Part shown: piece by piece, positions 45,323-59,114 of the stretch
Layout: the number at the start of each line of letters is the position of its first letter
Position numbering within the stretch: position 1 is the stretch's first letter
NCBI RefSeq assembly: GCF_000702605.1
Contig: NZ_JNIR01000001.1
Span: 1,044,501-1,108,500 of the forward strand
Reading direction: 5' to 3'
Source of the DNA: Exiguobacterium acetylicum DSM 20416
GTDB taxonomy: Bacteria > Bacillota > Bacilli > Exiguobacteriales > Exiguobacteriaceae
DNA length: 64,000 nucleotides
Made by a program: the position numbers and the translations under genes
The notes under the pieces: generated by a model
What the model saw: only the letters and a program-made list of their open reading frames with translations
Databases searched by the model: none
What the model was told of the DNA's origin: nothing

Positions 45323-45342
45323 CAAAAACGGGAGGGGATGGA

Positions 45343-47048
45343 ATGAAACATATGTCAGTCAGACGGAAGATACAAGCTTTGATCGCAACAGCCGTCGTTG
45401 CGATGCTTTTGATTGCGGGAGCAGGACTCTATTTCTTGAATCAGATGTCGAATGCTTCCCGAGCGATGTATCAGCAAAACTTAATACCGATCCAGGAAGT
45501 AGCTCAAATCCGAATCGATACACGCGCGCTCGATTCTTTTTTAGTCGAGATGATGTTAACGAAGGACGAGACGCGGGTCACGGAACTGCAAGCTGAGATC
45601 GATACGCGTCAGGCGCAGATTCGTTCGTCGGTCACGAAGGTCGAAAAAACAGGGCATTTCGATGCCAAAGAAAAGAAATAGCTTGAAGAATTAAAGGATA
45701 ACGTCCTCGCCTATGATAATTCGATGACGATCGTCCAGGATGCGGCGACGCGCAACGAGACCGAAGAAGCCTATACGGCGTATACGCAAGGTCTGGAACA
45801 AGTCCGGGATAACGTCGCGGATTCTGCGAAGTCGTTGATGGCTTCGATGACGAAGCAAGCGAAAGCGTTAGACGCTCAGAATCAAGCTGAAAAACAAACG
45901 GCCTTTTACTTAATGCTCGGCATTTTTTTCTCGCGGTTCTCTTGTTTGCAGGACTTGCGATGTACATTACACGTCTCATCACTCGTCCGATTCGTCAATT
46001 GCAGGGATGGATGGATCAATCGGGGAACGGGGACTTGACCGTCCGTGGAACATACGACTCCAAAGACGAACTTGGACAGTTGACGACGTCTTTCAACGAG
46101 ATGATTGCCTCACAGCAACAAGTCGTACTTGAACTAACCGGTACGGCTGACCGTGTCGCTGTCGCATCGGACGAGTTAAGCGTTAATGCGGAATCGACGA
46201 CGAAAGCTACGGAAATGGTCGCCGTGACGATGGAAGAGATGGCAAGCGGTGCAAGTCAACAATTGCATCAAGTATCCGACGCCTCACGGACGATTGAAGA
46301 GTTGACGACGTCGGTTCGTTACGTCGCCGGCAATGCCCAACAAATGACTGAGCGTACAGCGGATGCGATGGAAAAAGTCGAACTCGGTGGTCAAGTCGTC
46401 GGAACACTCGGCACCCAAATGGGACGGATTCAAGAAGACGTCTCTCGTCTGAGCCAAGTCATTGATGGTCTTGGTAACCGATCGCAGGAAATCGGACAAA
46501 TCACGGATTCGATCAAAGGTGTCGCGGCGCAGACGAACTTACTTGCGTTAAACGCAGCAATCGAAGCGGCGCGTGCTGGCGAACAAGGACGCGGATTTGC
46601 CGTCGTCGCAGCGGAAGTCAAGACGCTCGCGGAGCAGTCAGCGGTCTCGGCAAAACAGATCGAGTTGTTGATTCGGGTCATTCAACAAGAGACGGAAGCA
46701 TCGGTCGCCTCGATGGAGAAAGTCTCAACCGAGATGACGAGTGGAATTGCCGTTGTCGATCAAGCCGGTGCCTCATTCTCAGAAATCGAGACAGCCATCA
46801 CCGACGTGACAGGGCACGTCGAAGAAGTGTCCGGTGCCGTACAAGAAATGGCGGCAGCGAGTGAGCAGATCGCCTCCGTCATGCGAACAATTCAAGCGGT
46901 GACGGAAGGAACGGCTGCCGGAACCCAAAACATCTCCGCGTCGACCGAGGAGCAGATGGCGTCGATGGAAGAAATTTCGTCTGCGTCTCAGTCGCTTGCG
47001 ACGATGGCGGATGATTTAAAACAAGTCACAGGCAGGTTTACTGTCTAA
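45343..47048 (+). pseudogene. Methyl-accepting chemotaxis protein with amber codon and frameshift
   Basis: ATG behind GGGAGGGG. TM1 about 14-33, helical sensor domain, then an in-frame TAG at 45679 (after KEKK); the same frame goes on with LEELKDNVLAYDNS. Inside TM2 a run of seven T (45923-45929) shifts the frame: eight T would read [18 protein letters not shown] into an intact HAMP ([15 protein letters not shown]) and full signalling domain with [21 protein letters not shown] restored protein would be about 568 aa. Two lesions make it a likely pseudogene. Confidence 0.85.
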
Positions 47049-47111: not shown

Positions 47112-48025
47112 TTAGGCTGCCTGTACACCGTATTTTTTCGGTGTCAGGTAGCCTAATTTTTCTTGGATTCGTTCTTCGTTATAGTAATTTAAGTAATTAG
47201 TAACGCGTTCAGAGACCTCATGGTCTCTTAGTGAATTAAATTTGACGTACTGGAATTCCTCGGACTTTAAATTAGAGTGGAACGATTCGATAACTGCGTT
47301 GTCCCAACAGTTTCCTCTACGAGACATGCTGCTTGTTAGGTGATTCCTTTTAACGAATTCTTGAAAGGCGTATGACGTATAGACACTTCCTTGGTCCGAA
47401 TGAAGGATGACCCCTTCGGGATAGTTTCGATTCTCAAGCGCTATCTTCAACGTATCAATCACAAGAGACGTTTGTTGATGCTCGTATAACTTGTATGCGA
47501 CGATTTCGTTATTAAAAAGATCCATGATGGTGGAAAGATATTTCGTCGTGCTGCCGTATTGGATATAGGTGATATCCGTCACCCACTTTTGATTCGGTTT
47601 ACTTGCTGTGAAATCGCGCTTGATGAGATCCGGTGCCGTTATGATGCGCTCACCTTGAGACTTCCATCTTCGCTTCGGCTTGATCCGACATTGGAGATGG
47701 TGTTTTTGCATGATTTTCTGTACGGTATTCCGATTGGCTTTTAACTGATAGATTTGCTGTAATAATGCCTTTATTTTTCGATGTCCATTCCGATACTTCG
47801 TCTGTTTACTTAGTTCAATGACGGTTTTTTCGAGCACCGAAGGTGCTTTCACAGATTCCTTAATCCAACGGTAATAGCTTGCTCTTGGTACATTCAAAGC
47901 GCTAAGAATGGCGGTGATTGTATACTTTCTCCGAAGAAACTCTACAATTTTTATGACTACTTCTTTCTCAACTCTCTTTCGATTTCCATGTACTTTTTTA
48001 AGATCTCATTTTCCATCTTCAGATG
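47112..48025 (-). CDS. IS3-family transposase OrfB (frameshift-expressed)
   Basis: The catalytic DDE domain is intact: WVTDITYI, ILHSDQGSVYTS and NAVIESFHSNLKSE supply Asp, Asp, Glu; YLNYYNEERIQEKLGYLTP is the rve C-terminal box. The frame has an ATG at 47897, but in-frame coding continues upstream (VHGNRKRVEKEVVIKIVEFL, then LNVPRASYYRW) to the slip site near 47993, so it is normally made as an OrfAB fusion by -1 frameshifting. The start given here is approximate. Confidence 0.85.
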
Positions 48026-48274
48026 TGACATTTGTCGTTCTCTCTTGTCATCCTCACTCGCAGAATCTGGACCATGTCCATAGGTATATTGTTTACCGAT
48101 TGGCTGATCAAATCGATAATGTTCGTTAGAGCGATACCATCTCATCCATGTTTTGATTTGAGATTCATTTTTGATTCCGTACTTCTCCATGATTTCTCTC
48201 GTCGTTAACTTACCACTCAGCTTTTCTTTGACTACTGCCCATTTTACTTCACTTGAATATACGTTTTTGCCCAT
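47957..48274 (-). CDS. IS3-family OrfA (HTH)
   Basis: 105 aa. Helix-turn-helix VVKEKLSGKLTTREIMEKYG and a leucine-zipper-like MSHLKMENEILKKYMEIERE. The slippery heptamer AAAAAAG (plus-strand 47993-47999), in frame as A-AAA-AAG within LKK, is the classic IS3 frameshift site that yields OrfAB transposase. Confidence 0.88.
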   Translation of the reverse strand: MGKNVYSSEVKWAVVKEKLSGKLTTREIMEKYGIKNESQIKTWMRWYRSNEHYRFDQPIGKQYTYGHGPDSASEDDKRERQMSHLKMENEILKKYMEIERELRKK

Positions 48275-49062: not shown

Positions 49063-49485
49063 ATGGTACCAAATTTCATAATCGAAGGGATGACGATCGT
49101 TTTTACACTACTCGTAGTCGGCTGCGGCGTGATGTGTCTCCCGAAACGATGGAAGCGGTATGGATTGATTTTGCTTGGTTTGGTGGCGATCGGGTGCAGT
49201 TTCTTTTGGTACATCCGACCGACGCTCATCAATCAACAGATTGCTGAGGATGAGAAATTGCTTAAGATAGAACTAGCACGTCGATTCCCGGATGAAGTCT
49301 ACACTACAAAAACACAAAAATTTTCGTATGAGTCTTCGGCGAATCCGGCTTCAATCGAAGTCGAATTTGCAAATGAACCTGACGTAACTTATTTTCTAGA
49401 TATGGATGGGAACCGGATTAGGCTTTCAAGTTTCACCTTTAAAAACGGAGGATTTCCACAGGATTTACAGCATGAATTCAAATGA
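49063..49485 (+). CDS. Membrane-anchored DUF3139-like protein
   Basis: 140 aa from ATG 49063 behind AAAGGAG. Two N-terminal helices (about 7-24 and 33-49), then an outside domain with VEFANEPDVTYFLDMDGN and a DLQHEFK end, related to the protein at 7643-7969. Function unknown. The repeat element at 49489 begins 4 bases after its stop. Confidence 0.6.
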   Translation: MVPNFIIEGMTIVFTLLVVGCGVMCLPKRWKRYGLILLGLVAIGCSFFWYIRPTLINQQIAEDEKLLKIELARRFPDEVYTTKTQKFSYESSANPASIEVEFANEPDVTYFLDMDGNRIRLSSFTFKNGGFPQDLQHEFK

Positions 49486-49488
49486 AGA

Positions 49489-49727
49489 GGCTGACTCAAA
49501 AAAAGAATGACGCGTCTTTTCACGCCCTTTCCTCAGACGAGACACAAGCCAGTTTTCCTGCTTCATTGAAGCAGGAAAGCGGGTCTTGTTCGTCTCTGAT
49601 AGCGCATAAATGCGCTTGTTCCTGTAGGAGTAGTGTGTGACGCGTCATTCTTTTTGTTACTAAATAAGGGAGGCAGATCATTATTCTGCCACCCTTATCT
49701 TTGTAGAGACTGACTTTTGAGTCAGCC
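49489..49727. repeat. MITE-like repeat, copy 1
   Basis: 239 bp with terminal inverted repeats GGCTGACTCAAAA (49489-49501) and TTTTGAGTCAGCC (49715-49727). Inside are a second perfect inverted pair AAAAGAATGACGCGTC (49501-49516) / GACGCGTCATTCTTTT (49639-49654) and a hairpin ATAAGGGAGGCAGA / TCTGCCACCCTTAT (49664-49698). Bases 49507-49552 recur in reverse at 57229-57274 with one mismatch. No coding capacity. It ends 8 bases from the rhodopsin stop and probably terminates that gene. Confidence 0.8.
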
Positions 49728-49735
49728 CCTTTTGA

Positions 49736-50482
49736 TTAAGTCAATTTCAAATTTTTCGTAGCAGACATCGTCTTGACGGCGAAGAAGGCAATCAGACCAA
49801 ATCCGACCTTGTTGATCAAGTCAGCGAAGTTATAGATCAATTCGCGGACGAGTTGTACCTCGATGCCGGGTGCAAACAAGGTGACCGCGTAACCGACCGG
49901 ATAGATCGCCCATCCGATCAAGATGAACAAGCGCATCTGCAACAAGGCTTCACGAATCGGGGCAGGCTTATCTTCAGCAGCTTTCGTGACGTTCGTGAAC
50001 AGCAGATAAATGATATAAAACCATGCGATACAACCAACGACGTATGCCCAAAGACCGAGTTGTGTGAAGCCACCCGCTAAATTGATGGACGACTCGCCGA
50101 TATACCCACCGATGATCATGATGATGTCCGCGATGACGAGTTTCGTTAGAAGGGAACGTCCTTTCCCACCTTTTAAACCGAGCAACAGCGGAAACTTGAT
50201 CAGTAAGAGAGGCGTCGTCACAAGCCAGTCGATGTAGCGGATTTCGGTCGGAAAGCCATCGATCTCTGACAACAAACCCGATTCCCCGACAGCTTGCTTC
50301 ATGAAATAGTAATGAATCGCAGCGACGAACGTGACGAGAGCAGCGACTGTTGCGGTCGAGCGGTATTCCGGGGCAAGGGAATTTCGTTCGACGAGAAAAT
50401 AGAGCGTACCGGCGGCCATTCCGACGAATCCGACCCAGAACATGTACTGGGTCGCAAGGACGAGGAGATTGACGTCTTCCAT
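49736..50482 (-). CDS. Proton-pumping rhodopsin (Exiguobacterium type)
   Basis: 248 aa, seven helices. Key residues: His57 (AAIHYYF) next to acceptor Asp85 (RYIDWLVTTP), Thr89, Lys96 in LLLIKFPLL at the usual donor carboxylate position, Asp221 and retinal Lys225 (NFADLINKVGFG). This set is that of the E. sibiricum rhodopsin, a light-driven outward proton pump where Lys96 replaces the carboxylate donor. AAAAGGAG precedes the start. No retinal synthesis gene is in the window, so the chromophore is made elsewhere or acquired. Confidence 0.95.
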   Translation of the reverse strand: MEDVNLLVLATQYMFWVGFVGMAAGTLYFLVERNSLAPEYRSTATVAALVTFVAAIHYYFMKQAVGESGLLSEIDGFPTEIRYIDWLVTTPLLLIKFPLLLGLKGGKGRSLLTKLVIADIIMIIGGYIGESSINLAGGFTQLGLWAYVVGCIAWFYIIYLLFTNVTKAAEDKPAPIREALLQMRLFILIGWAIYPVGYAVTLFAPGIEVQLVRELIYNFADLINKVGFGLIAFFAVKTMSATKNLKLT

Positions 50483-50633
50483 GTTGTTTCGACTCCTTTT
50501 CGTAAGTGGACACGACCTTTCATACTTTTATTTTACTGACGATACAGTCTTCAGACACCATGTCGAAACGCTCTTGATGTGTGGTCTATCAACGGTTTGA
50601 CAACATTTCGACACACTTGAGGAGGAGTGACGG

Positions 50634-51074
50634 ATGCCGAGTAAACGAATGGATCATATCAGTCTGAACGTCGTGAACCTAGAAGAAGCGATTCACTTTT
50701 TTTCGCTTTGTGGCCTCGAAGTACGCGGACGATGGGAGATGAAAGGAGAGTTACTCGATCGTTTATTAAATTTAGAGGGAGCGGAGACGGAGTGTGCTGC
50801 ACTCGGATTACCAGGTGAAGCAATCTGGCTTGAACTCGTTCGATTTAAACACCCGCGTGACACGCCTTCCGTGATCCAATCCGTCCACGCAGGTGGATTG
50901 CGTCATCTCTGTTTTGAAGTAACGGCACTCGCCGCGCTCGTCGAACGTTTAGCGGACAATGGATATCAGTCGATTGGCGACGTCGCGAATTACGAAAATG
51001 AGTATCGCCTATGTTACGTAAGAGGACCAGAAGACGTGATCATTGAGTTGGCAGAAAAAATCGGACCTGTCTAA
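50634..51074 (+). CDS. VOC-family protein
   Basis: 146 aa. Glyoxalase/bleomycin-resistance fold: MDHISLNVVNLEEAIHFFSL, LRHLCFEVTAL, YVRGPEDVIIELAEK. His8, His near 94 and Glu near 140 fit metal ligands. GAGGAGTG precedes the start. Divergent from the rhodopsin gene; TTTCGACA occurs once on each strand of the 151-bp gap. Confidence 0.8.
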   Translation: MPSKRMDHISLNVVNLEEAIHFFSLCGLEVRGRWEMKGELLDRLLNLEGAETECAALGLPGEAIWLELVRFKHPRDTPSVIQSVHAGGLRHLCFEVTALAALVERLADNGYQSIGDVANYENEYRLCYVRGPEDVIIELAEKIGPV

Positions 51075-56133: not shown

Positions 56134-56229
56134 ATGAAAATTCAATTAGGGTCAGAACAATACGAAAGGGTGACTCAAAAAAAGAATGATTCGCCTTTTT
56201 GCACTTTTTCCTATCGGAGTTGCGTGTGA
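56134..56229 (+). pseudogene. Truncated gene start interrupted by repeat copy 2
   Basis: ATG 56134 follows AAGGAGAGAAG. It reads MKIQLGSEQYER, then runs into the repeat element at 56168 (VTQKKNDSPF...) and stops at 56229. The good ribosome site and the abrupt entry into the repeat suggest a gene cut by insertion. No remainder was found to the right. Confidence 0.5.
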
Positions 56230-56322
56230 CGAGTCATTTTTTTACGAGATAAGGATGATAGATGATTATTCTGTCACCCTTATCTTTGCAGAGAATAATT
56301 TATGAATCACCCTCCATGATGT
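56168..56322. repeat. MITE-like repeat, copy 2
   Basis: Terminal inverted repeats GGGTGACTCA (56168) and TGAATCACCC (ending 56322). Shares TGACTCAAAAAAAGAATGA and the ATAAGG..TCTG(T/C)C.CCCTTATCTTTG hairpin with copy 1 but is shorter (155 bp) and more decayed. Sits in the gap before the converging membrane gene. Confidence 0.75.
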
Positions 56323-57089: not shown

Positions 57090-57292
57090 TGGAGCTGACT
57101 CAAAAGTCAACTCCTCAGACTGAAAACAAAGCGTAATTTTTTTTAAAAACGAAAAGGATTGCGCTTTTTTGTTCATCTCGAATCGTTTTCCTAGGACAAG
57201 CATCGCACCGCTTCGCTGCAGGGTCGCTCTGGCTTGTGTCTCGCCTGAGGAAAGGGCGTGAAAAGACGCGTCATTTTTTAGGATCAGTCATC
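57090..57292. repeat. MITE-like repeat, copy 3 (inverted)
   Basis: Begins with a hairpin GGAGCTGACTC/GAGTCAACTCC-type (57091-57114) like the right end of copy 1 and ends near GGATCAGTCA (57281-57290). Bases 57229-57274 are the reverse complement of 49507-49552 with one mismatch. Another hairpin AAAGCGTAAT / ATTGCGCTTT with T run lies at 57127-57170. Confidence 0.7.
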
Positions 57293-58061: not shown

Positions 58062-59114
58062 ATGAACGTTGCCATCATAGGAGCAGGAATCAGTGGTTTG
58101 TATCTCGCGACGCGTATGCAGGAACTTGGACACGACGTGACGATCTATGAAGCACGTGACCGAATCGGCGGTAGAATCGAGACAGTCGATTTCGACCTAG
58201 CCGGGCAAGCATATGCGTTTGATCTTGGACCGACTTGGTTTTGGCCGGACAGTGAACCACTGATGGTCGATTTGATCCATCGATTCGATTTACCGACACT
58301 GGAACAATATGCGACGGGAACGCTTCGACTAGAACGGGCTGACGGAATCGAGTCACATCTGGTTGCGAATCAACCGACGGCGCTTCGCCTTCGTGACGGA
58401 ATCCGCTCCGTTGCTACGGCACTTGCTGCACGACTCACACCGGGAACGATTCGACTCAAGTCTCCGATCAGCCAAATTGATGTCACGAACCGGATTCTCG
58501 TCAGTTCAGGAAGGAAAAGTCAACCGTACGACGAGATCGTCCTCGCACTACCACCGCGTCTAGCGGCAACATTATCGTATATGCCAGCTTTACCTGAAGC
58601 AGTTCTGGGTGAACTTGAAGCATTACCGACTTGGATGGCGCAGCAAGCTAAATGTCTGATTCTTTACGAGAGACCGTTTTGGCGTGATTCGGGCTGGTCC
58701 GGTCAGGCAATCAGCTGGACTGGGATGGTGCAAGAGATACATGACGCTTCCCCACAAGACGGACCAGGAGCGTTGTTCGGTTTTTTCCGGACACCGGCAC
58801 GTGAACGACAGTTATTGACCGAGGCGGAAATCAAGGAAACCGTATTCGCGCAGCTGGTTCGTCTATTCGGTGAACAAGCGCGTCAGTCGATTGGTTGGGC
58901 GTATAAAGACTGGTCGACGGATAGTTGGACAGCAACACGAGCTGATGCAGCACCGCTCGTGGATTTCCCGGCATATCATGCTATCAATCTCGGAATGGAG
59001 CATGCAGCGATTTCACTGATTGGGACAGAGACCGATCCGAGTCATGGTGGACACTTAGAAGGGGCCATACGATCCGTTGAACGCTATTTAGAAAAGAGAG
59101 GAGTAAAAAAATGA
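58062..59114 (+). CDS. Flavin amine oxidase-like protein
   Basis: 350 aa, shorter than typical monoamine oxidases. FAD motif IIGAGISGLYLATRMQELGH at 5-24, then YEARDRIGGRIETVDFD, DLGPTWFWP near 63, and GGHLEGAIRSVERYL at the end (FAD contact). Oxidises an amine or carotenoid-like substrate; not a crt-type desaturase by length. AGAGGATG precedes the start. Overlaps phzF-like start as ATGA. Confidence 0.82.
   Translation: MNVAIIGAGISGLYLATRMQELGHDVTIYEARDRIGGRIETVDFDLAGQAYAFDLGPTWFWPDSEPLMVDLIHRFDLPTLEQYATGTLRLERADGIESHLVANQPTALRLRDGIRSVATALAARLTPGTIRLKSPISQIDVTNRILVSSGRKSQPYDEIVLALPPRLAATLSYMPALPEAVLGELEALPTWMAQQAKCLILYERPFWRDSGWSGQAISWTGMVQEIHDASPQDGPGALFGFFRTPARERQLLTEAEIKETVFAQLVRLFGEQARQSIGWAYKDWSTDSWTATRADAAPLVDFPAYHAINLGMEHAAISLIGTETDPSHGGHLEGAIRSVERYLEKRGVKK

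Follow-up and report, generated by a model that had tools for sequence, protein, structure and literature searches.

An ortholog of the Exiguobacterium sibiricum rhodopsin (ESR) is encoded in the window, that is, in the whole 64,000-nucleotide stretch of the Exiguobacterium acetylicum DSM 20416 genome that we analysed (positions 1044501-1108500 of contig 1 in a three-contig assembly of 3,277,108 bases). By far the best reading of its product, to which we assign a probability of roughly 0.9, is an outward light-driven proton pump with a lysine as the proton donor, because the protein is 89% identical to ESR and carries all six residues named for this type. This agrees with the original prediction, which had proposed a light-driven pump with a lysine donor from the letters of the sequence.

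Identification of the rhodopsin gene

The limits given for the gene in the original prediction were right, and the strand, which had gone unnamed there, is the minus strand. The gene is a single long frame of 248 codons that starts with the ATG at 50482-50480 and is preceded by a probable ribosome-binding site (Table 1); frame 1 of the plus strand over the same interval contains five stops. The protein matches the Pfam model Bac_rhodopsin (PF01036) over residues 10-238 with a score of 204.9 bits against a cut-off of 24.6 (E=1.5e-60). Its best match among solved structures is 4hyj (E=5.7e-145), followed by the proteorhodopsins at about 1e-38, and, judged by sequence, a chance likeness to 4hyj is excluded. 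The 4hyj structure is that of the E. sibiricum protein, as its residues 1-244 are the same as those of the copy in E. sibiricum 255-15 (L009, NC_010556.1). A column-by-column count between the window protein and 4hyj gave 218 equal residues out of 244.

The earlier proposal had also named six residues, His57, Asp85, Thr89, Lys96, Asp221 and Lys225, as matching the E. sibiricum-type rhodopsin. We compared each of them with 4hyj, and all six are identical. K225 in the last helix is the Schiff-base lysine, as it is in 4hyj. The H57-D85 pair, T89, the lysine at position 96 and the close orthology to ESR place the protein among the ESR-type rhodopsins, and not among the proteorhodopsins with a carboxylate (Asp or Glu) donor. 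A protein with 98% identity is found in a record of Exiguobacterium indicum (L092).

Pumping, its direction, the colour of the protein and the chemistry of its donor would be as described for ESR and for its relative E17R from Exiguobacterium sp. S17. If so, this seven-helix retinal protein would absorb light and move protons out of the cell. Light would isomerise the retinal on K225, and the proton of the Schiff base would then pass to D85, which would interact with H57. K96 would be neutral in the dark, receive a proton from the cytoplasm and give it to the Schiff base, a task that falls to Asp or Glu in other pumps. The lysine donor of ESR is described in these terms: it is neutral in the dark, is first protonated from the cytoplasmic medium, and then passes the proton on (PMC8387761). 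E17R is reported to be 85% identical to ESR, to absorb at 524 nm, and to produce proton currents upon illumination in membrane measurements (PMC4871484).

Table 1. Features of the rhodopsin locus, of the carotenoid cluster in the same genome, and of the rhodopsin-blh pair in a distant relative. Positions without a prefix are those of the window.
Feature	Position	Strand	Remarks
MCP gene (methyl-accepting chemotaxis protein)	45340-47048	plus	In-frame stop and frameshift here; open frame in a close relative (L028)
IS3-type transposase genes (rve/HTH_21)	47112-48274	minus	Between the MCP and rhodopsin genes; unmatched in 11 same-genus neighbourhoods
Dispersed repeat with inverted terminal arms	49485-49731		Directly behind the rhodopsin stop codon; about 245 bp
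Terminator-like hairpins inside the repeat	49690-49672, 49526-49509	minus	Consensus matches only
ESR-type rhodopsin gene	49736-50482	minus	248 aa; H57, D85, T89, K96, D221, K225
Probable ribosome-binding site AAAGGAG	50493-50499	minus	10 nt before the ATG; read from the sequence
Carotenoid cluster of the same genome	L022:4294-13882		Synthase, three CrtI/N-type desaturases, CruF-like protein, glycosyltransferase, acyltransferase
Rhodopsin frame, Ca. Caenarcanales	L090:9956-10741		Lys-donor type
blh frame, Ca. Caenarcanales	L090:10722-11645		Overlaps the end of the rhodopsin frame

Distribution and selection

The window protein is ordinary for its genus, being a member of the ESR-type rhodopsins that are already known across Exiguobacterium. 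Published work places such rhodopsins throughout the genus and gives 21 further genomes (PMC4871484), and eight rhodopsins, that of E. sibiricum included, have been noted to form a branch in which position 96 is divergent (PMC13043013). In our data set, 12 of the 19 genomes of the genus have an open-frame copy, and all 12 matches are free of internal stops. The remaining seven lack the gene or have it only in fragments, and the gene is therefore dispensable. At the syntenic locus of one close relative (G010; L112:6808-7073) there are two rhodopsin fragments, which may be read as a decaying copy; in another genome (G011), the flanking neighbours are kept on both sides, with no rhodopsin between them. 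The sister genus has the rhodopsin in 9 of 19 genomes, where it is 83-85% identical to the window protein, and one of these copies has an in-frame TAG (G390, an assembly with 8% contamination). The other 360 of the 398 Bacilli genomes yielded two weak matches, one 27% identical with Ala in the K96 column (L069) and one that could not be aligned as a rhodopsin (L070); both were left out of the K96 counts.

When named genomes were scanned for two exact peptide patterns, an approach that would miss more distant Lys-donor relatives, 21 loci were recovered, 14 of them in Exiguobacterium records. The other loci belong to Jeotgalibacillus, two Alkalicoccus records, a Bacillus MAG, Marinococcus luteus, Salisediminibacterium halotolerans and a Ca. 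Caenarcanales MAG. All 12 same-genus copies, all 9 sister-genus copies and all 21 loci from the named genomes retain K96; these sets overlap, since several of the named records are identical assemblies. Plasmid records contained no close copy: three of them matched, each with 33.7% identity over 40% of the query. The copy in Jeotgalibacillus sp. R-1-5s-1 (L077:10001-10738) is 89% identical to the window protein and thus closer to it than the sister-genus copies are; judging from this identity, it may represent either a recent transfer or a mixed assembly. The tree of Lys-donor rhodopsins leaves 11 of its 15 inner branches open, and the branches of the outgroup and of the Caenarcanales protein are very long; we claim no direction of transfer from it.

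Comparison of the window gene with eight of the 11 remaining same-genus copies gave dN/dS values of 0.005-0.046 (NG86, first 240 codons), with dS above 1, near saturation, in the three most distant of the eight pairs. NG86 values are quoted because YN00 was numerically unusable for four of these pairs. The values point to strong purifying selection on the rhodopsin, despite its patchy presence in the genus. They also bear on whether the opsin is a relic that was never charged with retinal. On the one hand, no known retinal gene was found (see below), the gene is missing in G011 and fragmented in G010 at the same locus, and one sister-genus copy, from the contaminated assembly, is interrupted by a stop. 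On the other hand, neither the low dN/dS nor the open frame in every same-genus match is what such a relic would leave, and we rejected this reading, which we consider very improbable, on dN/dS.

The repeat element behind the gene

A repeat right behind the rhodopsin gene had been pointed out before, and it is indeed there. Its arms, 17 nt each (49485-49501 and 49715-49731), are 94% complementary, and the genome holds 36 matching pieces of it, nine of which, this copy included, are near full length. Two more pieces lie in the window, at 56167-56312 and 57229-57279. Among the 12 same-genus copies of the rhodopsin gene, the site behind the gene is taken by the element in two (the window and L005), by a short hairpin ending in TTT in five, and by another hairpin in five. 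In five same-genus relatives, a terminator-like hairpin stands at the spot that the element occupies here, and the element itself contains two predicted hairpins of this kind (Table 1). Five terminator-like sites are predicted in 49400-50800, against a mean of 1.7 in shuffled sequence, a count that is no proof of function.

The neighbouring chemotaxis receptor gene

An MCP gene lies two genes away from the rhodopsin gene, and a sensory rhodopsin that signals through this receptor is a conceivable alternative to a pump. The two genes are indeed found near each other in all 11 same-genus neighbourhoods compared. However, the MCP gene is also kept in 6/6 same-genus loci without an intact rhodopsin, and no MCP homolog was detected at the four sister-genus and five other-genus rhodopsin loci compared. 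In the window, an in-frame stop and a frameshift break the MCP gene, and both ESR and E17R pump protons. We find a sensory pair scarcely credible and rejected it: at the loci compared, the MCP does not go with the rhodopsin, and it is interrupted here, and the locus does not supply the transducer that such a pair requires. A proton pump with a lysine donor is the reading that we retain.

Retinal and carotenoid genes

The window had been described as free of retinal and carotenoid genes, and our searches bear this out. Nine proteins, namely seven from the carotenoid cluster of this genome, the second SQS_PSY protein and one true blh, gave only weak matches when searched against the window with tblastn. 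The best of these, 30.6% identical over 115 residues (58068-58370, E=1.6e-7), sits in a gene (58062-59114) for a 350-aa protein of the flavin amine-oxidase family. When the search was extended to the rest of the genome, where blh and crt genes had been suggested as a check, a carotenoid cluster was found outside the window, and neither PF15461 nor TIGR03753 revealed a blh gene for retinal synthesis.

The same holds for a much wider set of genomes. PF15461 is over its cut-off in none of 398 Bacilli genomes, among them 38 genomes of the family. It is found below the cut-off in five (E 1.3e-4 to 1.0e-3); three of these matches have internal stops, and one of the five is in G011, the same-genus genome without a rhodopsin. 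The model was silent in all 14 control genomes, and the Caenarcanales blh (G403) served as the positive control. The RPE65-type oxygenase (PF03055) was found neither in the genome under study nor in any of the 38 family genomes, and the lycopene cyclase model PF18916 also found nothing in these 38. Another lycopene cyclase model, PF05834, has matches in 18 of the 19 genomes of the genus (eight over the cut-off, the genome under study among them). Within the genus, these matches lie in frames of 431-542 aa and span only positions 1-2 to 35-129 of the 380 positions of the model; we read them as a shared flavin-binding motif and rejected them as lycopene cyclases.

Two SQS_PSY genes lie on contig 1 of the genome, one at 362 kb and the other at 2.117 Mb. 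The first belongs to the carotenoid cluster (Table 1), in which no cyclase was recognised. C30 carotenoids have no beta-ring. Such carotenoids have been predicted for the whole genus Exiguobacterium (PMC6331483), and the gene content of the cluster appears consistent with that prediction. No known retinal gene having been found, the protein might be without a chromophore in pure culture.

A blh gene next to a distant Lys-donor rhodopsin

We searched for blh in seven genomes of ESR-type relatives from other genera and found one full match, in the Ca. Caenarcanales MAG, and none in the six ESR-bearing Bacillota among the seven (two of them MAGs, and all six of unstated completeness). The Caenarcanales rhodopsin is 64% identical to the window protein and keeps K96 together with the other five named residues. 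The adjoining blh passes both PF15461 (145.1 against a cut-off of 28) and TIGR03753 (146.8 against 95.25). The pair (L090:9956-11645) stands downstream of genes resembling those for cytochrome bd oxidase. Ca. Caenarcanales are non-photosynthetic relatives of cyanobacteria. Among open-licence PMC papers, searches on this group, Vampirovibri- and Melainabacteria names included, brought up none with a rhodopsin of the group in its title or abstract.

Source of the chromophore

The simplest and likeliest reading of the missing retinal genes is that the cell obtains its retinal by uptake from the environment. We infer that such uptake is probable, and favour it because PF15461 is nowhere over its cut-off in the 398 Bacilli genomes and neither PF03055 nor PF18916 occurs in any of the 38 family genomes. 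Retinal auxotrophy has been called common (PMC12422013). Rhodopsin genes without blh or diox1 are also mentioned for Firmicutes and other phyla, although as data not shown, in a study that reports one actinobacterium making retinal without either gene (PMC7734400).

That last observation leads to a second reading, in which the protein is the same pump and the cell makes the chromophore by a route for which no gene has been described, either with a new cyclase together with a new cleavage oxygenase, or by turning its carotenoids into an aldehyde. The opsin is under strong purifying selection, yet no blh, RPE65 or PF18916 gene was found. A precedent is Aurantimicrobium minutum, in which retinal is present and pumping occurs although both blh and diox1 are missing (PMC7734400). 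A distant cyclase also stays formally conceivable in view of the weak PF05834 matches, which exceed the cut-off in 8 of 19 genomes. However, these matches cover no more than the beginning of the model, the carotenoid cluster consists of a synthase, three desaturases and modifying enzymes with no recognised cyclase among them, and the carotenoids predicted for the genus are of the C30 type, in which the beta-ring is absent. Overall, we consider a route of this kind rather unlikely. The broader proposal, that the ESR-type rhodopsins of Bacillota are charged through undescribed genes, be it a new Exiguobacterium cyclase with an oxygenase or a carotenoid aldehyde (probably C30) that replaces ordinary retinal, seems a little less likely still.

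Whichever source applies, the pattern is worth keeping: a strongly selected opsin, a family in whose genomes no known set of retinal genes was found, and a distant Lys-donor relative with blh next to its rhodopsin gene. Together, the selected opsin without retinal genes and the distant rhodopsin-blh pair turn the choice between auxotrophy and an unknown pathway into a question that is testable in easily grown bacteria.

Comparison with known systems

Green proteorhodopsin (8cnk, 2l6x) belongs to the same fold family and has the same type of pump mechanism (E about 1e-38), but its donor position is occupied by Glu instead of Lys, with CEFYL aligned to IKFPL in the window protein. The Ca. Caenarcanales protein, although only 64% identical, shares the lysine donor and the five other named residues; it differs in having an adjoining blh, whereas no blh over the cut-off is present in the 38 family genomes. 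E17R is closer: by its published description, on which we base the comparison with the window protein, it is a rhodopsin of the Lys-donor type with reported proton pumping and a reported 85% identity to ESR, although it comes from the other Exiguobacterium clade (PMC4871484). ESR itself (4hyj) differs from the window protein in 26 of 244 residues and in the C-terminal tail, and the window gene has the dispersed repeat behind it. The two proteins share the remaining 218 residues, including all six named positions and the lysine donor K96, and the E. sibiricum gene (L076) stands in the same neighbourhood, with genes for a C45 acyltransferase, an MCP and a VOC protein.
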